This document shows, in pieces, positions 4,043 through 30,977 of a stretch of DNA of 34,062 bases. Location of the stretch: positions 1-34,062 of IMG/VR virus record IMGVR_UViG_3300031784_000115. One strand, 5' to 3'. Position numbers and translations under genes: made by a program. This DNA is from a virus. Below the pieces are notes generated by a model. That model was not told the DNA's origin, did not search any database, and saw nothing but the letters and a program-made list of their open reading frames with translations. Positions within the stretch are counted from its first letter, which is position 1. The number at the start of each line of letters is the position of its first letter.

Positions 4043-4552
4043 TCATTCGCCTTTCATCTTGGTGTTGTACTTACGGCCTTTCCAGCTGAACGTTTTAACG
4101 CCAGCTTTACGAGCCGCTGCAAAAGCATCATCAAACGAGCTGTTCTCACGTCCTTTGTTACCTTGACGTGCTGCACGCTCTTGACGGGCAAACTCAGCAC
4201 CTTGAGTGCGTTGAGCCTCCACTCGACGGGCTTGAGAGGCTGGTAAGGTTCCAGAAGCCGTAGGACGAGGCCTCATAACTTCATAGGCTGCACCAGCTGG
4301 AGTAGCACGACGCAGATTACTCAACACACTCATTGCATCTTTAACGATGCTGAGTCCAGAAGACTTGGGTCGATCTGCGCTGCTAGTAACTTTTGCAGGA
4401 GGAGCACCAGCAGGCCGAGGATCACCACTCCTAGTTACGTTTGCTTGGCTAACAGATTGCCTGTTCTGCCGTTGAGGGTACTGACCCTTTGTAACTGGTT
4501 TAGTAGACGATCTTTTAGACCGATTACTAGAAGACGTAATCTTAGGAGCCAT
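4043..4552 (-). CDS. 169-aa basic, Ser/Arg-rich protein of unknown function
   Basis: The N-terminal 75 residues are low-complexity and rich in Ser, Lys, Arg, Pro and Gln, probably disordered. The middle contains AGAAYEVMRPRP, and residues 95-135 are a highly charged helix rich in Arg, Gln and Glu. The C-terminal 35 residues, FDDAFAAARKAGVKTFSWKG followed by RKYNTK, match a short motif I recall at the C-terminus of many cyanophage and marine phage hypothetical proteins. The strongly basic composition suggests nucleic-acid or virion association, but nothing proves it. AAGG lies just upstream of the ATG, and the 48-aa gene ends 5 bases before it. Confidence 0.7.
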   Translation of the reverse strand: MAPKITSSSNRSKRSSTKPVTKGQYPQRQNRQSVSQANVTRSGDPRPAGAPPAKVTSSADRPKSSGLSIVKDAMSVLSNLRRATPAGAAYEVMRPRPTASGTLPASQARRVEAQRTQGAEFARQERAARQGNKGRENSSFDDAFAAARKAGVKTFSWKGRKYNTKMKGE

Positions 4553-4556
4553 AGCC

Positions 4557-4703
4557 TTACTTGGTTTTGTAACCTTTTTTCATCTTGCCACTTTTTTGAA
4601 CTTGTGGCTTACCAGATGCTTTAGCCTCTTTAGACCATCGCTTAGCAATCTCAGGATGTTGAGCGTACATATAACGCATCTGTTTTTCAGATTTAAACGG
4701 CAT
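4557..4703 (-). CDS. 48-aa basic micro-protein (MPFKSEKQMRYMYA type)
   Basis: A short minus-strand frame beginning MPFKSEKQMRYMYAQHPEIA, then a Trp and a Lys-rich tail ending KKGYKTK. Small proteins starting MPFKS...QRRYMYA..P.IA..W are familiar from many phage genomes but have no established function. Its ATG shares bases with the ATG of the plus-strand 85-aa gene (the CATG palindrome), so the two genes start back to back. Its stop lies 5 bases before the 169-aa gene. Amino-acid pattern and tight packing support it. Confidence 0.7.
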   Translation of the reverse strand: MPFKSEKQMRYMYAQHPEIAKRWSKEAKASGKPQVQKSGKMKKGYKTK

Positions 4704-4959
4704 GGAAATTTCAAAACTCTTAAACCAGCTTATTCAATATGTTTTTGATTGGTTACTTGAACTTTGGAGAGAAGCTAAAACAGAAGCAAATTTAAACTCT
4801 GAAATTTCTAAATACCACAAAGCGGCTGAAGAGTTAGACCCCCAGCCGCAAGCAGAATTTAAAGAAAATGGCGTTTTTGGAGAACCCGGTTGGTCTATCG
4901 AGATCTCACATCCAGCTTTTACTTCCCCTGACCTCGATAAGCCTTCTGACCCTTCTTAG
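4702..4959 (+). CDS. 85-aa protein on the opposite strand, unknown function
   Basis: The only convincing plus-strand gene in the window. It fills the one sizeable hole in minus-strand coding (4704-4918), starting at the ATG of the leftward 48-aa gene and ending 41 bases inside the leftward 42-aa gene. The protein has ordinary composition: a predicted amphipathic or weakly membrane-associated start (LLNQLIQYVFDWLLELW), a helical acidic middle and a Pro/Asp-rich tail. By hand count, 4681-4920 is about 37 percent G+C, clearly lower than the 61 percent of the adjacent 5041-5280. No Shine-Dalgarno is seen; TATAAC at 4670-4675 might be a -10 element but has no good -35. I do not recognise the family. 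It could be a moron-type acquisition with its own promoter. Confidence 0.55.
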   Translation: MEISKLLNQLIQYVFDWLLELWREAKTEANLNSEISKYHKAAEELDPQPQAEFKENGVFGEPGWSIEISHPAFTSPDLDKPSDPS

Positions 4960-5047
4960 GTTTACTGTTTTTGCTTGAACCTTGGGTTGTTTGTTTTGGT
5001 TTAGCTGGGAGACGGACTGGTTTACCGCTCAGAGTTTTCTTAACCAT
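4919..5047 (-). CDS. 42-aa highly basic micro-protein
   Basis: A minus-strand frame whose ATG overlaps the stop of the 77-aa gene as TAATG, suggesting coupled translation. The product is almost entirely Lys, Gly, Pro, Ser and Gln (for example KKTLSGKPVRLPAKPKQ and a KAYRGQGK end), so it is probably disordered and may bind nucleic acid. Its last 41 bases overlap the tail of the oppositely oriented 85-aa gene. No family is recognised. Low complexity makes this call less secure than its neighbours. Confidence 0.5.
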   Translation of the reverse strand: MVKKTLSGKPVRLPAKPKQTTQGSSKNSKPKKGQKAYRGQGK

Positions 5048-5280
5048 TACGCCAACCCGAACAGTTCCTTCAGCTCCGCCACGGTCAACCCAGCCGCTTC
5101 CAGCTTCTGCTCAGTGGTGAGCACTGGGGCGGGTTCAGGTTCAGGGGCAGGCAAGGGGGTGTTGCCTTCATCGAGCCATGCGAGGTACGCCTGGTAGTCG
5201 GTGTTGGCGAGGTCGGGTGGGATGAAGGCGTTGTCGGAGAGGCGAAGAATGGTGTCGCCTTGGGTGCGTTGGTAGGTCAT
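5047..5280 (-). CDS. 77-aa small protein following fibre genes, possible fibre assembly factor
   Basis: An acidic 77-residue protein with the phrase FIPPDLANTDYQAYLAWLDEG, then a Pro/Glu/Ala linker (LPAPEPEPAPV) and a C-terminal helix-turn-helix-like stretch LEAAGLTVAELKELFG. Proteins with the phrase DxxNxDYQxYLxWLxEGN are common next to phage tail-fibre genes, and some are treated as assembly chaperones; I infer a similar role. The gene is G+C rich (about 61 percent by hand count), unlike the A+T-rich DNA just to its left. Its stop overlaps the 42-aa start. Confidence 0.65.
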   Translation of the reverse strand: MTYQRTQGDTILRLSDNAFIPPDLANTDYQAYLAWLDEGNTPLPAPEPEPAPVLTTEQKLEAAGLTVAELKELFGLA

Positions 5281-5283
5281 GGG

Positions 5284-6360
5284 TTACAGCTCGGCGGAAG
5301 CAGTAAATGTACCGCTGTTGTTTGTGTTTGCGACAGTATCGCTGCGACCAACGCCCGCAGATGTTGTTCTTATGTTAACTGCAGCAAAAGTACCCTGATC
5401 GTTTGTTCCGGTAACAGTCGGAACTATACGTTTTTCGACCATAAAGTAACACGATGTATAGTAACTTGTGGTGATACTTGCGTTCGCCACGCCAACTCGG
5501 ATGTAGTAATCTCCTTCTTCGTAATACCTCTGACACAACGCCAGCTCCTGCCCGTAGCTCCTGCGTTCAAACGGGGTGGCGACGGTTCCGGCTTCTAGTT
5601 GGACTCCGGTGATGTCCCAAGTAGCGTTCAGGGTTCCAATAATGTTTGTCGCCCCTGTGGCTCCGTAAATACTGGAAGTGCTGGTCCAGCTACCTGCTGC
5701 ATCAACGCGACTGGAGCCAGCACCAATCTGGAAGGTCAGCGTGAGTCCACGCCCTGTATCCGTCAACCATGTGCCCGTAGTATCTCCGGCAACAGTTACA
5801 GTCTTGTACTCCCAAGTATTAGCGGATGAAATCGAATATGTAAAAGGATAGTTTCGATCATTTGCAGAGTTGTTTAACGCACCGCCAAATGTTCCTGTCA
5901 GACTTGACCTGACCCAAAAAGAAAATGTAAAAGTTTTTGCATTAGCAGTGCCAAGCCCAAGATCATATACATTGTTTCCTTCGATAGCCTGCCTAAACAG
6001 GTAGATCTGTGTAGACCCAATAGAAGCATCTGCTGTTGTAACGGTAATGCGTGTTGAGTTTGTGAATCCCGTGGGCGCATCCGTGGTCTGATCAACAGTA
6101 AAAACACCATCTGTGCTTTCGCCAGAAGCAAACCATCTGTCAATACAGTAAGTATTTGCAGTGGAGTTGATTGTCACACTCGCCCCAGCATTCCGCTGAT
6201 CAATCCGCATATCACCGTTGATGATGCGGTTCCTAGCGCCACTCAGTGGTCCGCCGTTGAGGCTGCTGACTTGAGCTGTTGCACTGCCATCAGCAGCAAG
6301 CACGATGGCTGGATTGGCCGCTGAGGCGTGTTGAAGGTTGGTTGTTTTAAGTGTGCTCAT
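5284..6360 (-). CDS. Tail fibre/receptor-binding-type structural protein
   Basis: A 358-residue protein. After a short collar-like start containing AADGSATAQV comes the phrase NRIINGDMRIDQRNAG (43-58), typical of a jelly-roll, carbohydrate-binding-like domain found in many phage structural proteins. The conserved closing block GVQLEAGTVATPFERRSYGQ and LCQRYYE follows near residues 250-280. The last 75 residues are a Ser/Thr-rich beta region that probably varies with host. It follows the 224-aa fibre protein by 3 bases and has GGAG 7 bases before the ATG. A virion surface role in host recognition is the most likely reading; no catalytic motif is seen. Confidence 0.75.
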   Translation of the reverse strand: MSTLKTTNLQHASAANPAIVLAADGSATAQVSSLNGGPLSGARNRIINGDMRIDQRNAGASVTINSTANTYCIDRWFASGESTDGVFTVDQTTDAPTGFTNSTRITVTTADASIGSTQIYLFRQAIEGNNVYDLGLGTANAKTFTFSFWVRSSLTGTFGGALNNSANDRNYPFTYSISSANTWEYKTVTVAGDTTGTWLTDTGRGLTLTFQIGAGSSRVDAAGSWTSTSSIYGATGATNIIGTLNATWDITGVQLEAGTVATPFERRSYGQELALCQRYYEEGDYYIRVGVANASITTSYYTSCYFMVEKRIVPTVTGTNDQGTFAAVNIRTTSAGVGRSDTVANTNNSGTFTASAEL

Positions 6361-6363
6361 TGG

Positions 6364-7038
6364 TTAGCTCCAGGTGCCTTGAGATGACGCACTACCAGCT
6401 GCACCGATAGGCGTGATATTGATATAACTACCAGCCAAAGTGCTATAGGCACCACCAGGAGCTGCACTTAGTTGATATTGAGGGATAAATGTGCCACTAG
6501 CGTTAACACTAATAGTGCCTCGCAAAATTAGTACAAAAGTTACAGCAGCTGAAGTGACACCAGTTGTGTAGTTAAGATTGTTTAACGTTGTGTTAAACAC
6601 AACTCCTGCAGGTGGCGAGCCACCACCAAGATCGCCTGTAGTTGCAGTGTTAATTCGTACTGAAGTTGCAGAATAGTTAAAGTTATTTGTTGTAGCTGTA
6701 CCACCAAAAAGTAAACCAAGGTTATGGCTTGTTGTTCCAGCAGTTTTTTGAAGCTGCAAATGCATTTCAAACGCATAAACAGTGCTTGCTTCTAGTGTCG
6801 CCCCAACTCCAAATACTGATTGTGCTCCAGTTGCGTTTGAGCCAACGTAATTAGAGTTAAGCCGATAAAATAACGAGCCAGCGTTCCATTGAAAAGACAA
6901 GGAACCAGCTGCATCTGTTATGACTGATTGCCGATTGCTACCGTTGCTGCTTGGTAGCACCAGAGTATTGTTCCCCCCGGCTGCTGCACAGTCAAGGTTT
7001 ACATAGCCGCTGGTTGATCCATTAAGCCTTAACGTCAT
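6364..7038 (-). CDS. Fibre-associated structural protein, beta-rich
   Basis: A 224-residue Gly/Ser/Thr/Asn-rich protein. The N-terminal stretch LRLNGSTSGYVNLDCAAAGG, followed by NNTLVLP, resembles the start of many phage fibre-tip and collar proteins, where this repeat-like module attaches fibre subunits. The remainder is predicted beta sandwich with phrases such as YAFEMHLQLQKTAGT. Its ATG overlaps the previous stop as ATGA. It belongs to the block of fibre accessory genes between the tail fibre and the small basic genes. Exact function is unknown. Confidence 0.65.
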   Translation of the reverse strand: MTLRLNGSTSGYVNLDCAAAGGNNTLVLPSSNGSNRQSVITDAAGSLSFQWNAGSLFYRLNSNYVGSNATGAQSVFGVGATLEASTVYAFEMHLQLQKTAGTTSHNLGLLFGGTATTNNFNYSATSVRINTATTGDLGGGSPPAGVVFNTTLNNLNYTTGVTSAAVTFVLILRGTISVNASGTFIPQYQLSAAPGGAYSTLAGSYINITPIGAAGSASSQGTWS

Positions 7039-22919: not shown

Positions 22920-24332
22920 TCAGTACGGGTTACCGTCACTCAGCAAGCTGACGCAGCACTCAGGACGCAGGATACCGTGACCCACGGCATAGCTAGCAAC
23001 CATCATGGTGCTTTGGGTCATGGCCTTGTACTCCGAACCAGTCATCTGCATCGAGACATCCTTCAGAGCCACAGTACCCACAGCTTCCTTGGTGAAGCAC
23101 AGACCGAAGCAGTTAGCGATGGAGCTGGTGTTACCCTGCTCATCCTGGTAGTAATCGTAGGTACCAGCAGCAGCCTGACCGTCAGAGCCATCGCGGCCAT
23201 TGACGTAGTTAGGACGCTCACCACGGGTCACAGCCGACTGGTTGCTAAGACCAGCATAGGTTTGACCGTTGGTGTAACCGTTGATGCCCAGGTGGTTGGA
23301 GGTCATCAGACGGAAACCAGCCACAGAAGCAACACGGTTGCCATTGACGGTGCCGTTGACACCAGTACCGCCGTTCCAATCGGTGTTGATAGCACGGTCG
23401 CTATTCAGCACGTCATAGTAAGCACCAGGGGTCAGGACAACCACACGGCCTTCCTTAGGAGCATCCTTCTCGTCCAGGGCTTGGCAAGCCTTGTAGAGGT
23501 TCTCAACGATCAGATCACCGCGAGCGTTACGGTCAGCAGCACCGTTCAGGTCAATACCGGTGAACGAGGTACCACCAGGCAGAGCGTTCAGAACGAACAG
23601 GCGCTCACCCACAGTGAACTGAGCGTTAGTACCAGTACCAATAGCACCCAGGGGGTTGATACCGAAGGTAGCTGCACCGTTGGTAGGAGCAGTGGTGATC
23701 ACACCGTAAGCACCGGAGGTCTCACCGTACACCACTTCACCCACTGCCCAGTAAGCCAGTTCAGCGGTCTGGAAGTTGGCGCTCAGAGTCACCACACCAG
23801 AGGTAGCCGAAGCGTAGGTACCGCCGTTCAGTTGGAATCGCTTGGAATCCCAATCCTTCACGCGACCGTCAGACTCAGAAGCAGCCAACAGAGTACGAGC
23901 AAGGCGCTGATCGTAAGCACGGGCCAGAGCGCGACCAAGTTCAGTCGAGTAAATAGAACGCACGTCCCAGTGCAGTTTTGCTTCATCCAGGTCGTAGATG
24001 GAAGCATCAGCAATGAGCAGGTCATCAATGGTGATGATCTTTTCACCGATCATGCCTTTGTTACCTTGACCCGTGATGAAATCACCAGGACGGTGGTAGC
24101 GGCTGGAGAAACGACCAGTGATCGGGAAGCTTGCGCTCTTGCCCGAAGAAATGGTGCGCTTCATGGTCAGATCCTTGAAGATCGTCTCACGGTTGAAGGT
24201 GGTAAGAACCTCACCAGAGAAGATCTTCAGGAAGTTAGCGTTTTCACGCTCGTAGTTACCGGAGGCGGAACCAGCGTTATATTGAACGCCATTAAGTCCA
24301 CCCAACCGGCCTAGAGATGCAAAATCAGGCAT
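22920..24332 (-). CDS. Major capsid protein (T7 gp10-like)
   Basis: A 470-residue capsid protein, longer than T7 gp10A (344). The N-terminal half carries familiar T7-like capsid phrases: LKIFSGEVLTTFNRETIFKD, SGKSASFPITGR, and IDDLLIADASIYDLDEAK with the E-loop near residues 55-100. Residues about 165-255 (GVVTLSANF, GEVVYGETSGAYGVITTAPT, GGTSFTG) are beta-rich and look like an inserted surface domain. A second Gly/Asn-rich insert lies around 370-405. The C-terminal part (KDVSMQMTGSEYKAMTQ, YAVGHGILRPE) returns to the conserved fold. Codon use looks more biased and G+C rich than in its neighbours, as expected for the most highly expressed gene. No Shine-Dalgarno is seen. Confidence 0.93.
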   Translation of the reverse strand: MPDFASLGRLGGLNGVQYNAGSASGNYERENANFLKIFSGEVLTTFNRETIFKDLTMKRTISSGKSASFPITGRFSSRYHRPGDFITGQGNKGMIGEKIITIDDLLIADASIYDLDEAKLHWDVRSIYSTELGRALARAYDQRLARTLLAASESDGRVKDWDSKRFQLNGGTYASATSGVVTLSANFQTAELAYWAVGEVVYGETSGAYGVITTAPTNGAATFGINPLGAIGTGTNAQFTVGERLFVLNALPGGTSFTGIDLNGAADRNARGDLIVENLYKACQALDEKDAPKEGRVVVLTPGAYYDVLNSDRAINTDWNGGTGVNGTVNGNRVASVAGFRLMTSNHLGINGYTNGQTYAGLSNQSAVTRGERPNYVNGRDGSDGQAAAGTYDYYQDEQGNTSSIANCFGLCFTKEAVGTVALKDVSMQMTGSEYKAMTQSTMMVASYAVGHGILRPECCVSLLSDGNPY

Positions 24333-28040: not shown

Positions 28041-28769
28041 TCAAGCGTAACTCGGAAGATCAGAGTTAGAAGTCTCGAAAAACGCTGGCATTCTGGCTCG
28101 TTGGGTTTCGATCAACCCTTCTGCTTTACCTGCGTACATCAGACTGTCGCTCTGATCCAACCAGAACTGCTTGTCTAGGTACTTGTCGCTCGACTTAGCA
28201 AGCGGCTGCATCACCCAATTAATGGTTGCCTTTCTGAGGCGATCCAAACTAGGAGAGACAGTGAGACCAAGCTCACGACATACCAAGCTATTTGTTGCGA
28301 CGTGAACTTGTTCATCACGACTGATATCAGCAGAGATGGTCCTCAGTCCAGCGTCACCGTTGAACCGGAAGAATGGGAGGATAACAAAGAATATGCTTCT
28401 CTCAGCCACCAGTGCTTTGAGTACGGTGTGGTCTGGATGATCTTCCCAAGCTTTTCGTAGGCGAGCTGCTTCCGTTTCTGCTTGGCTATCTGTACCGAGC
28501 GCGTTTGCTGCGTATCCCAGGGCAAGGTCATGGTTCTCCTCGTCTTTGATGTTTGTAAGAAGAAGGTCACGAGCTGCTTCAGGTACCTCTGATTTCAGAG
28601 CATCACTGATGAACTCACCAACAGGCAGCTCAAGCTGTCGAAGGGCGAGAGCCCGGAAGATAGCCTCTTCCGAACCCTCTTTCAACTTACCTCCGGTTGT
28701 TTGAACAGGAGTCCAAGTACGCTTACGTTCAAGCAGTTTCTGATACGGGTTCATTCGGCGCAATCGCAT
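28041..28769 (-). CDS. nrdB: Class I ribonucleotide reductase small (beta) subunit, cyanopodovirus type
   Basis: A 242-residue ferritin-like protein, shorter than cellular NrdB (about 350). The six di-metal ligands fit a four-helix bundle: Glu47, Glu77 and His80 (EENH), Glu123, Glu153 and His156 (EQVH), with equal 30-residue spacing within each pair. The radical-bearing tyrosine of E. coli NrdB lies four residues after the first His; here that position is Leu84, and the nearest Tyr is at 86. This fits the proposal that P-SSP7-like beta subunits form an unusual class I subclass. The gene follows nrdA with a small overlap. ATG at 28754 (ATGA overlap with the nrdA stop) is an alternative start. 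The beta role is well supported; metal and radical type are open. Confidence 0.85.
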   Translation of the reverse strand: MRLRRMNPYQKLLERKRTWTPVQTTGGKLKEGSEEAIFRALALRQLELPVGEFISDALKSEVPEAARDLLLTNIKDEENHDLALGYAANALGTDSQAETEAARLRKAWEDHPDHTVLKALVAERSIFFVILPFFRFNGDAGLRTISADISRDEQVHVATNSLVCRELGLTVSPSLDRLRKATINWVMQPLAKSSDKYLDKQFWLDQSDSLMYAGKAEGLIETQRARMPAFFETSNSDLPSYA

Positions 28770-30148
28770 TGAGGTTCTGAATCCCCATCAAGAATCCCGG
28801 CAAGATAAGCCTCAACATCTACATCGCTAATAGCTGCGTAGGCGTCAGTTTTATCTTGTGTATCTGACATTACCTGAAGAGAGTAATACAAACTCTTCAG
28901 AGGGGAGTTCAACCATCGTGCCATAAATTGACGGTCCATTGTTGTCATATCGGACCACCAATTCATAGAAATTGCGTGAGCCATTCCAGTGCTGTCCATG
29001 AGCTTTTGCCACTCACTGTTCAGCTCAAAGAACACGTCCCAACCAACCTCTTCAGCAGTCTCACATTTGGGATTGAACTTGTAGCTCTGCACCCCAAGAG
29101 TGGCACTATCACGATCTACCTCGCGGCTAATTGGAGGAGAGATCTCAGGGGTTGTAGTGAACCCTTCACGGTCCACATAACGGTATGCACAAGACGCTGT
29201 AGGAGCCACGGTGAACGCTCGTGACATCTTGTAGTCAGCAGCCACCTTAGCGGCCTCCATAAAGCCCGTATAGAGCGCTTGAGCGATCTCACCAGCTTTG
29301 TTATCAGCGGTGCCTAACCCAAGGTTCCTGCGACGGAGAGCGCCAACAAACTCTTCGTACTTGACGCCTTCGATAGCCAGCAGGTTTGCCAGACCAAGAA
29401 CACCAAGACCAACTTGGTTATCTTTGCGGGTATAGATCCCTGATTCATCTACACCTGTACGGGTGTAAAGATCACAAAGGAACTTCATTCCATCAACGAA
29501 AGCTTGAGGGATCTCATCGATCTTGGTAAGACCCAAGTTGATGTGACTCAGCAGACAGGTATCCCGAGACTTGAGCAGGATCTCTTGGCAAACATTCGAA
29601 TAAATCCGCTCACCATTTGCGTCGTACTGCTTCTTAACAATCCAGACATCACCCTTACGGGCAGCATCCATGATTGCTTTCAGCTTGTTGGGTTCATCAA
29701 TGATGTCAGGATCAACATTGACACAGCGCTTGATCCAAGGAATACGAGCTCGATCGTAATTAACAAACTCAAGAATGTCAGGGTGATCTGCGTCGCAATG
29801 AGCAACGATTGCACCGTTCCGATATGTTCCCCCTCGACGGAGAATCTCGTTGAACTTGGAGTAAATCTCCATGAACCCACAAGGACCTGAAGCAACCATT
29901 CCGTGGCTGTTCTCGGTACCTTTTGCACGAAGCTTAGACAGGTGGATAGCAACGCCTGCACCGTAGCGAAGAGCTTTACTAGCAAACTGCCAAGAGCCTT
30001 CAAGACCATCAGGGTGTTCGTCCATTGTGTCTTCTACAACGAAGACAGTACAGGAGACCGGGTACCTACGAGTCGGATTCTTCAGCCAGCTCTCCACCCT
30101 CCCCGTCATTGCGATCGCTGGATTCAGAGTCTGCATCGAAAGTTCCAT
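28751..30148 (-). CDS. nrdA: Class I ribonucleotide reductase large (alpha) subunit, compact cyanopodovirus form
   Basis: This enzyme reduces ribonucleotides to deoxyribonucleotides for phage DNA synthesis. From the ATG at 30148 it has 465 residues, against about 760 for E. coli NrdA. Active-site residues are all visible: Cys33 (PVSCTVF), Asn185-Cys187-Glu189 (NVCQE), and Cys198 (TCLLSHINLG). The class I radical-transfer pair Tyr421-Tyr422 (LKSLYYSL) and the C-terminal redox pair CDC (461-463) are present. The ATP-cone and most of the usual N-terminal region are missing, because the protein begins only about 30 residues before the first catalytic Cys. The start overlaps the 96-aa gene by about 80 bases, has no clear ribosome-binding site, and a TTG at 30154 or later ATGs are possible. 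Class I assignment is strong. Confidence 0.9.
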   Translation of the reverse strand: MELSMQTLNPAIAMTGRVESWLKNPTRRYPVSCTVFVVEDTMDEHPDGLEGSWQFASKALRYGAGVAIHLSKLRAKGTENSHGMVASGPCGFMEIYSKFNEILRRGGTYRNGAIVAHCDADHPDILEFVNYDRARIPWIKRCVNVDPDIIDEPNKLKAIMDAARKGDVWIVKKQYDANGERIYSNVCQEILLKSRDTCLLSHINLGLTKIDEIPQAFVDGMKFLCDLYTRTGVDESGIYTRKDNQVGLGVLGLANLLAIEGVKYEEFVGALRRRNLGLGTADNKAGEIAQALYTGFMEAAKVAADYKMSRAFTVAPTASCAYRYVDREGFTTTPEISPPISREVDRDSATLGVQSYKFNPKCETAEEVGWDVFFELNSEWQKLMDSTGMAHAISMNWWSDMTTMDRQFMARWLNSPLKSLYYSLQVMSDTQDKTDAYAAISDVDVEAYLAGILDGDSEPQCDCAE

Positions 30149-30356
30149 TGTCAAGTGAGCGTTGAAGTGAGGTGGTTACAAAATCGTCCCACTGATCGTC
30201 ATCAAGTTGATTCAGTGGAGCAAGTTCAGGGTGTTCATCGGGATCCCAGAAGAACTGAAGAGACCCGTTACCCTCGTCATCTTCCTGGTATTCAGCTTCG
30301 ACGTACTGCCAAGCTTCAGCAGGAATCTGTTTCAGCAGTTCAGTGTAATCCTTCAT
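30066..30356 (-). CDS. 96-aa very acidic protein of unknown function
   Basis: The N-terminal part reads as a folded domain (LLKQIPAEAWQYVEAEYQED, LQFFWDPDEHPELAPLN), while the last 35 residues are Asp/Glu/Ser/Gly-rich and disordered. The ATG overlaps the MazG stop as ATGA, indicating coupled translation. Its final 80 or so bases also encode the start of the RNR large subunit in another frame. No family is recognised; it could be a regulator of a nucleotide-metabolism partner or a DNA mimic, but there is no direct evidence. Confidence 0.65.
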   Translation of the reverse strand: MKDYTELLKQIPAEAWQYVEAEYQEDDEGNGSLQFFWDPDEHPELAPLNQLDDDQWDDFVTTSLQRSLDNGTFDADSESSDRNDGEGGELAEESDS

Positions 30357-30709
30357 AAGTCCGAGAGATCGGCGGGTTTGTAGTTAGGTCCTTTTTGTAC
30401 CTTTCCGTTGACTTTGGTGAAAGGAAACTTAGACCAGTTGGAAAGATAAACTCGTCCAAAAGCATCGTCAGGGTCCACACCATGAAGATGGAGAAGGCCA
30501 TATGTGACCCAAATGAGGTCGCAAGCTTCCTTGATGATCTGCGGGCGCTTCTCGTTGCGGAAGGCGTACATGAGTTCGTAGAACTCCTCCTCGACATAGG
30601 TGAGTTGTTTCTCAAGCGCCTCGATGTAGTCATCAGAATCAGGACTGATTAGTTGGTCCGCTTTTTGCATCCAAGCTTGTACTAGTTCCGCATTGGAAGT
30701 CAGCATCAT
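30353..30709 (-). CDS. mazG: MazG-like nucleotide pyrophosphohydrolase
   Basis: A 118-residue single-domain MazG-type protein. The metal-binding pattern is visible as EEEFYE on one helix and EACDLIW on the next, giving the EExxE and ExxD signature that binds Mg for nucleoside triphosphate hydrolysis. The C-terminus (AFGRVYLSNWSKFP, GKVQKGPNYKPADLSD) matches the form common in phages. Phage MazG proteins may recycle nucleotides from degraded host DNA or alter alarmone levels. I picked the ATG at 30709 (a second ATG follows directly). The start overlaps the DUF3310-like gene by 71 bases, so the exact start is uncertain. Confidence 0.85.
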   Translation of the reverse strand: MMLTSNAELVQAWMQKADQLISPDSDDYIEALEKQLTYVEEEFYELMYAFRNEKRPQIIKEACDLIWVTYGLLHLHGVDPDDAFGRVYLSNWSKFPFTKVNGKVQKGPNYKPADLSDL

Positions 30710-30977
30710 CTGCGTCAAGGATCGAATCGTAAAGGTTTGCTTGGCGTTGAGCCCACTTGGTGTCCCACTCTTCTGATCGTTTGATCAGTCGGTCAAGATA
30801 CCAACGAGCTTTCTTGAGATCTTCGGTACCGTTCTTGTGTTGGTACCTAGTCACATACTTGATGATGTTGCCTTCAATGAAGTCAAAGCAGTGACTCTCG
30901 ATGTAATCAATACATTCAATTACCCCCTCGTCGAACGCGTAGTGGTGGGGTCGTATTGGATCGTTGGTGGTGTCCAT
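30639..30977 (-). CDS. DUF3310-like protein
   Basis: A 112-residue protein with the DUF3310 pattern: HHYAFDEGVIECIDYIESHC, FIEGNIIKYVTRYQHKNGT and DLKKARWYLDRLIK. The family is common in phages, located with nucleotide metabolism and replication genes; some annotations call it a nucleotide kinase, but its reaction is not established to my knowledge. The last 25 residues, past about residue 87, are low-complexity and may be shaped by the overlap with mazG. The start overlaps the exonuclease gene by 58 bases. Confidence 0.8.
   Translation of the reverse strand: MDTTNDPIRPHHYAFDEGVIECIDYIESHCFDFIEGNIIKYVTRYQHKNGTEDLKKARWYLDRLIKRSEEWDTKWAQRQANLYDSILDADDADFQCGTSTSLDAKSGPTNQS

Follow-up and report, generated by a model that had tools for sequence, protein, structure and literature searches.

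The closest described relatives of the locus analyzed here are the ribonucleotide reductases (RNRs) of cyanophages such as P-SSP7. Harrison 2019 reports the discovery of a P-SSP7 beta subunit that had been overlooked earlier, which is missing Tyr122 and exhibits a ligand pattern unlike that of any subclass; this kind of enzyme was named Cyano SP and was proposed as subclass If. The same study proposed, on grounds other than those presented below, that alpha and beta derive, throughout the clade, from separate cyanomyovirus lineages. Burnim 2022 (PMC9531940) set the Cyano SP enzymes apart as class Ø, with an alpha branch lying outside classes I and II, and solved the S-CBP4 alpha by cryo-EM. 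By that account, the radical site of class Ø betas is occupied by either Phe or Leu, and these betas end in a C-terminal Tyr that is equated with Tyr356 and are devoid of the C-terminal docking extension; the paper itself raises the question of how such a beta engages alpha. The finger-loop motif NVCLE is given as common (30/35), without being defining, in PMC9669993, while PMC9860041 describes P-RSP2 as an outlier clade among the cyanopodoviruses. A 2026 preprint presents the class Ø group as still lacking biochemical characterization.

The window, by which we mean the whole 34,062-base virus record under analysis, is a fragment of a P-RSP2-like podovirus and encodes an alpha/beta pair (Table 1) that, judged by its sequence, is a member of the published class Ø (Cyano SP) RNR. 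Its alpha is short, yielded no Pfam match to an ATP-cone anywhere in its 465 residues (PF02867 alone passes its cut-off), and combines a Tyr-Tyr dyad with one of the two C-terminal dithiols of the class, CXC or CXXC. The adjacent ferritin-like beta, of ~240 residues, has Leu, one of the two class Ø residues, at the Tyr122 site and ends just past a Tyr (Y241-A242). A preliminary description of this DNA had recognized a class I-like pair with Tyr-Tyr and CxC features in alpha. Both features could be located, and the pair is borne out by a phmmer match of alpha to S-CBP4 alpha (PDB 7URG) across 453 residues, by the match of beta to the cyanophage RNR beta family of PHROG 6799, and by the R2 fold of beta. 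The description also held that most of the alpha N-terminal region is lacking, which is right insofar as the whole class is minimal and devoid of the ATP-cone, but this alpha is not short relative to its own family. Similarly, its agreement with the reassignment of the P-SSP7 enzyme from class II to a possibly novel class I subclass was correct as to kinship: the alignment to P-SSP7 that it had proposed reveals a beta that is 71.0% identical and shares the ligand pattern, including Asp76 and Asp152, whereas the alphas are only 51.9% identical. However, the 2022 reclassification was missed, and since PMC9531940 already states that the Tyr122 site of these betas is occupied by Phe or Leu, the central point of the description is not new.

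Table 1. Positions of the RNR genes, their key residues and the upstream neighbour in the window
Feature	Position	Strand	Remarks
Class Ø RNR alpha	28754..30148	-	465 aa; stop 28751-28753; 7URG E 5.7e-161
Class Ø RNR beta, ferritin-like	28041..28769	-	242 aa; PHROG 6799 E 4.4e-128
MazG-like nucleotide pyrophosphohydrolase, upstream neighbour of alpha	30353..30718	-	PHROG 671 E 1.5e-22
Alpha Cys187, finger-loop catalytic cysteine, motif NVCQE	29588..29590	-	Alignments; Cys in 164/164
Alpha Tyr421-Tyr422, radical-transfer dyad	28883..28888	-	P-SSP7-type mosaic junction at residues 419-422
Alpha C-terminal tail, residues 423-465	28754..28882	-	Two weakly predicted helices + CDC
CDC dithiol of alpha tail	28760-28768	-	
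Beta Leu84, at E. coli Tyr122 site	28518..28520	-	Leu 162, Phe 2 of 164
Beta Tyr86, variable	28512..28514	-	Tyr 147, Phe 15, Met 2 of 164
Beta Tyr241, penultimate residue	28047..28049	-	Tyr in 164/164

Several details of the gene layout are worth recording. The alpha frame spans 28751..30154 (-) and encodes 467 residues from a TTG at 30154, a possible alternative to the ATG at 30148. The beta start may be Met1 or Met6, and the alpha and beta frames overlap by 19 nt. The pair is flanked by the MazG-like gene on one side and by virion genes on the other. Between MazG and alpha lies a 96-residue acidic ORF (30066-30356, -), which overlaps the start of alpha by ~80-90 nt and had no match in Pfam and PHROG searches. 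Among the subset of window ORFs scanned against PHROGs, the record being a fragment, no NrdI, thioredoxin or glutaredoxin was seen.

To place the pair within its family, we collected 279 loci containing 203 complete alpha/beta pairs, of which 164 are unique; the copy of the window (L001) was excluded, and the pair of Microcystis phage Mic1 was assembled from two loci of one genome. The pairs were sorted into group A1 (the window, P-RSP2), A2a (P-SSP7, S-CBP), A2b (Syn5, SS120-1, S-TIP28) and A2s (S-CBS4-like, with L259 assigned by hand), plus an outgroup of Mic1, L262 and L264. Cysteines C33, C187 and C198 of alpha are all present in the alignments, and the Tyr-Tyr dyad is found in 163/164 unique pairs, the remaining one having an X. 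The predicted AlphaFold2 model of alpha has a mean pLDDT of 88.1, with the two tail helices (433-441 and 445-453) being short and of low confidence. Instead of the common NVCLE, the window alpha carries NVCQE, as do 55/55 unique A1 pairs; this otherwise A1-typical motif also occurs in 8/37 A2b (Syn5-type) pairs. S-CBP4 is accordingly a close parallel in architecture (minimal alpha, Tyr-Tyr dyad, CXC tail, and a beta of ~240 residues whose radical site has Phe or Leu and which ends just past its C-terminal Tyr), yet its alpha is just 54.5% identical and has the NVCLE loop. P-RSP2 (HQ332139) is closer, with the same alpha type (68.7%), a beta 70.2% identical, and a backbone that includes a portal at 85.7-86.5% and a DNA polymerase at 66.2%, the next polymerases reaching ~43% or less. 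The P-RSP2 RNR is unannotated in its record and, unlike in the window, both of its reading frames change phase: at ~4550-6720 of that record (L166), alpha and beta each switch frame part-way, and these two apparent frameshifts could be either real or sequencing errors.

The beta subunit is highly conserved at its putative metal site. The six ligands E47, E77, H80, E123, E153 and H156, whose numbering in the preliminary description proved exact, are unchanged in the 164 unique pairs apart from one X at His156, and Asp76, Asp152, Trp19 and Tyr241 are each present in 164/164. Alignment also confirmed the previously noted Leu at the Tyr122 site: Leu84 sits four residues past H80, just as Tyr122 of E. 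coli NrdB lies four residues past His118. With beta as the tblastn query, 56 phage-collection records were matched, at least 80% of the query being covered in 56/56. Pfam by itself would miss this protein, as its PF00268 match (E 0.044) is under the cut-off. The predicted model (mean pLDDT 90.3) adopts an R2 fold, and VIA aligns it with members of several R2 subclasses at Z ~19-20 over ~220 residues; assignment to an R2 subclass from the fold was rejected, as Foldseek and VIA structure matches do not separate the subclasses.

As one candidate store of the radical in the absence of Tyr122, the preliminary description had offered Tyr86. This residue lies on the same helix two residues past the Tyr122 site, and it aligns with a Tyr two positions past Phe127 of the C. 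trachomatis R2; Tyr9, kept as Tyr in 163/164, is another candidate. Tyr86, though, is Phe or Met in 17/164, which makes a family-wide store on this residue unlikely and led us to reject it as such, and Tyr9 is found within the N-terminal helix (8-14) of the beta model. A radical on another beta tyrosine is quite improbable in our estimation. The alignments do not support a fixed alternative Tyr near the site; the most economical reading is that the equivalent is held by the metal, and a high-valent dimetal center similar to those of class Ic or Id seems likelier than Tyr86. The class Ic R2 of Chlamydia trachomatis, a 346-residue protein with a second-sphere Glu119 and a full C-terminus, employs a Mn(IV)/Fe(III) cofactor. 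It is the best Foldseek match of the window beta (4d8f, E 3.5e-4), at ~14% identity. Both proteins lack a radical-site Tyr and share their first-sphere ligand types (Harrison 2019, Table 3), the window beta having the Glu/Glu/His/Glu/Glu/His set that, with a non-Tyr radical site, characterizes class Ic. However, the second spheres differ, as the Glu preceding ligand 2 in class Ic is replaced by Asp76 in 164/164 class Ø betas, and we make no claim of subclass Ic membership.

Based upon these features, a plausible course of the reaction can be sketched. Four Glu and two His of beta would bind a dinuclear metal site and, Tyr122 being replaced by Leu84, it would most likely be the metal center that stores the oxidizing equivalent, in the manner of class Ic or Id. 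From there, a relay through beta Trp19/Asp152 and Tyr241 may reach alpha Tyr422-Tyr421 and finally Cys187, after which the CDC tail would re-reduce the active-site cysteines. An entirely different reading, in which alpha is a B12-dependent class II reductase and the ferritin-like protein encoded next to it is unrelated, corresponds to the first annotation of P-SSP7. Burnim 2022 (PMC9531940) does report class Ø alphas to be closer to class II by BLAST, and phmmer with the window alpha likewise ranks class II chains (E 2e-12) below 7URG. Against this are the near-universal Tyr-Tyr dyad, the invariance of all six beta ligands, the covariation of tail and beta described below, and the proximity of the genes, which are no more than 300 bases apart in 197/202 complete pairs and no more than 500 in the remaining five (Mic1 uncounted). 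We regard the class II reading as extremely improbable. In Mic1 (MN013189; L082, L169), ~12 kb separates alpha (74598-76109) from beta (61615-62385), in contrast to the adjacent genes that PMC9531940 reports for complete class Ø operons.

The relationships of the two subunits to the rest of the family are discordant. The window alpha is 50-55% identical (maximum 55.2%) to those of the P-SSP7, S-CBP4 and Syn5 types and 71.7-97.4% identical to a viral-contig set (109 pairs, including the window and its copy); P-RSP2 is the only phage-collection isolate with this alpha type, the next reaching ~54%. The window beta, by comparison, is 71-77% identical to P-SSP7/S-CBP-type betas and up to 85% identical to betas encoded beside the other alpha type. 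When Syn5, S-TIP28, SS120-1 and S-CBS4 are pooled as A2b, mean alpha/beta identities are 53.9/73.2 between A1 and A2a, 67.4/52.6 between A2a and A2b, and 50.4/52.4 between A1 and A2b, as compared to 77.6/75.3, 81.5/84.6 and 69.0/64.7 within A1, A2a and A2b, respectively. The mismatch is thus confined to the two comparisons involving A2a. Near-fixed alignment columns mirror this shift: 39 barrel columns unite A2a with A2b and 0 unite A2a with A1, whereas the corresponding counts are 0 and 5 in the tail, which is short (43 columns), and 0 and 20 in beta. The same trend is obtained with three different cut-offs and with thinned sets (Fisher p 2e-23 to 3e-5). The last barrel-type column is 418 and the first tail-type column is 423, with SLYY in between. 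In the tree, column, dithiol, correlation and quartet analyses, A2a was partly defined by the tail QDK motif, which favours the tail result but not the beta result, and the mean-identity comparison, grouped without the QDK-based assignment, exhibits the same shift.

Rooted quartets yield a similar picture, although they have sequences in common and are not independent trials. With three outgroups, A2a joins A2b in 4284, 4284 and 4282 of 4284 barrel quartets, while A1 joins A2a in 4263, 4281 and 4283 of 4284 beta quartets; with A2s replacing A2b, the counts are 1862-1999/2016 for the barrel and 1941-2016/2016 for beta. For these quartets and the column counts, L147, or L147 together with L152 and L153, was removed from A1, as these were treated as a separate event, and L266, which has many X, was excluded from the tree, AU, column-pattern, tail/beta correlation and quartet sets. 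It is conceivable that no exchange occurred and that alpha and beta always traveled together, the contrast merely reflecting region-specific rates (a fast A1 barrel, and a fast tail and beta in Syn5/S-CBS4). Tree support for a mosaic is indeed incomplete, as congruent topologies are not all rejected by AU tests. The barrel tree unites A2a and A2b (SH-aLRT 99.3), with A2a in two places among A2b, and the beta tree unites A2b and A2s (99.8), with A2a as one group (96); these trees come from quick searches that missed better ones. For the barrel, A2b+A2s without A2a was not rejected (p 0.60) and even has a likelihood above the free quick tree, nor was A1+A2a (p 0.22). With beta, the test rejected A2a+A2b (p 0.014) and failed to reject A2a+A2b+A2s (p 0.54). 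Given these mixed group-level results, we rely upon the column patterns and rooted quartets. Barrel identities to Mic1 (A1 46.8, A2a 45.7, A2b 45.9, A2s 46.8%) reveal that the groups are about equidistant from the outgroup, making a fast A1 barrel less likely, while the almost complete conflict between barrel and beta quartets and the abrupt change from residue 418 to 423 are likewise hard to reconcile with an absence of exchange, which we deem improbable.

It is therefore likely that the class Ø family is a mosaic in which the P-SSP7 and S-CBP types join a barrel of the Syn5 lineage to a tail and beta of the window lineage. The barrels of S-CBP4 and the window accordingly differ in lineage, whereas their tail and beta are of one lineage. 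Our searches of open-licence PMC papers brought up no description of this mosaic. The ancestor of the P-SSP7/S-CBP types would have kept its own alpha barrel and gained the tail and beta from a window-like lineage, joined at the Tyr-Tyr dyad. The explanation as a whole, comprising a class Ø RNR, a metal-centered oxidant, and a tail and beta that form an exchangeable module in evolution, strikes us as quite probable.

The linkage between tail and beta is also evident from the tail dithiols, the type of which goes with beta. CXC tails occur in 52/55 A1, 43/44 A2a, 0/37 A2b, 0/25 A2s and 0/3 outgroup pairs, and all 37 A2b, 25 A2s and 3 outgroup pairs have CXXC; the sole A2a CXXC row is L266, counted as A2a in this tally, and its beta is Syn5-like. 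Among 85 representatives, tail and beta distances have a partial r of 0.88 given residues 11-379, as compared to -0.15 for the preceding 43 residues. Within groups, the values are 0.43 to 0.71 versus 0.12 to 0.28, kinship being uncorrected. Since class Ø betas are devoid of the usual docking peptide, the fact that tail and beta are inherited together hints at, but does not prove, a functional match between the two; either tail-beta contact or plain adjacency would explain their joint inheritance. That the two move together by adjacency alone, with the conserved SLYY providing homology for crossover and no functional matching involved, is to our minds slightly the better wager: the two window genes share 19 nt, and SLYY is kept in nearly all ingroup representatives. 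Both inferred events share the same upstream limit, which counts weakly against adjacency alone (n=2). A bolder possibility, which we consider rather doubtful, is that class Ø reverses class I docking, with the alpha tail and its two short helices ahead of the CXC/CXXC dithiol binding beta, a swappable module beginning at Tyr-Tyr, and P-SSP7 and S-CBP4 as natural chimeras that combine two class Ø lineages.

As for the direction of transfer, the genes flanking the cassette in A2a are closer to those of A2b than to those of the window, which makes the tail and beta more likely to be the foreign piece of A2a. The P-SSP7 portal is 52-56% identical to those of Syn5, S-TIP28 and SS120-1 versus 44% to that of the window, a gene of 57-65 residues after beta is common to A2a and A2b but missing from the window, and the A2a exonuclease is 40-45% identical to A2b versus 35-40% to the window, a small difference. 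From these comparisons we infer that a relative of the window is the more likely source of the A2a tail and beta. L147 and its near copies likely represent a second event with an unsampled source: they have an A1 barrel, a CXXC tail and a distant beta, and identity to crown A1 falls from 81-91% over alpha 380-422 to 40-44% in the tail and 61-63% in beta, a drop at the same point as the A2a switch.

Although this kind of enzyme is already known, the window member is useful as a parental type. If the best-studied class Ø enzymes are recombinant, as suggested here, this bears on whole-alpha phylogenies and on the notion of alpha and beta evolving as a unit. The mosaic similarly bears on the reasons for the distribution of CXC and CXXC tails, and the docking of a beta without the usual peptide onto alpha becomes a testable question via the lineages known here. 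Class Ø-like betas are also encoded in contigs titled Calothrix, Limnothrix MAG, Chloroflexi MAG and others (L260, L264 and L262 among the loci); the most distant of those in genome contigs are 48-55% identical, and they could be either host genes or phage contamination. Elsewhere in the window, an open frame of 445 codons (22977-24314, +) runs antisense to the major head protein gene and is probably a by-product of codon use.
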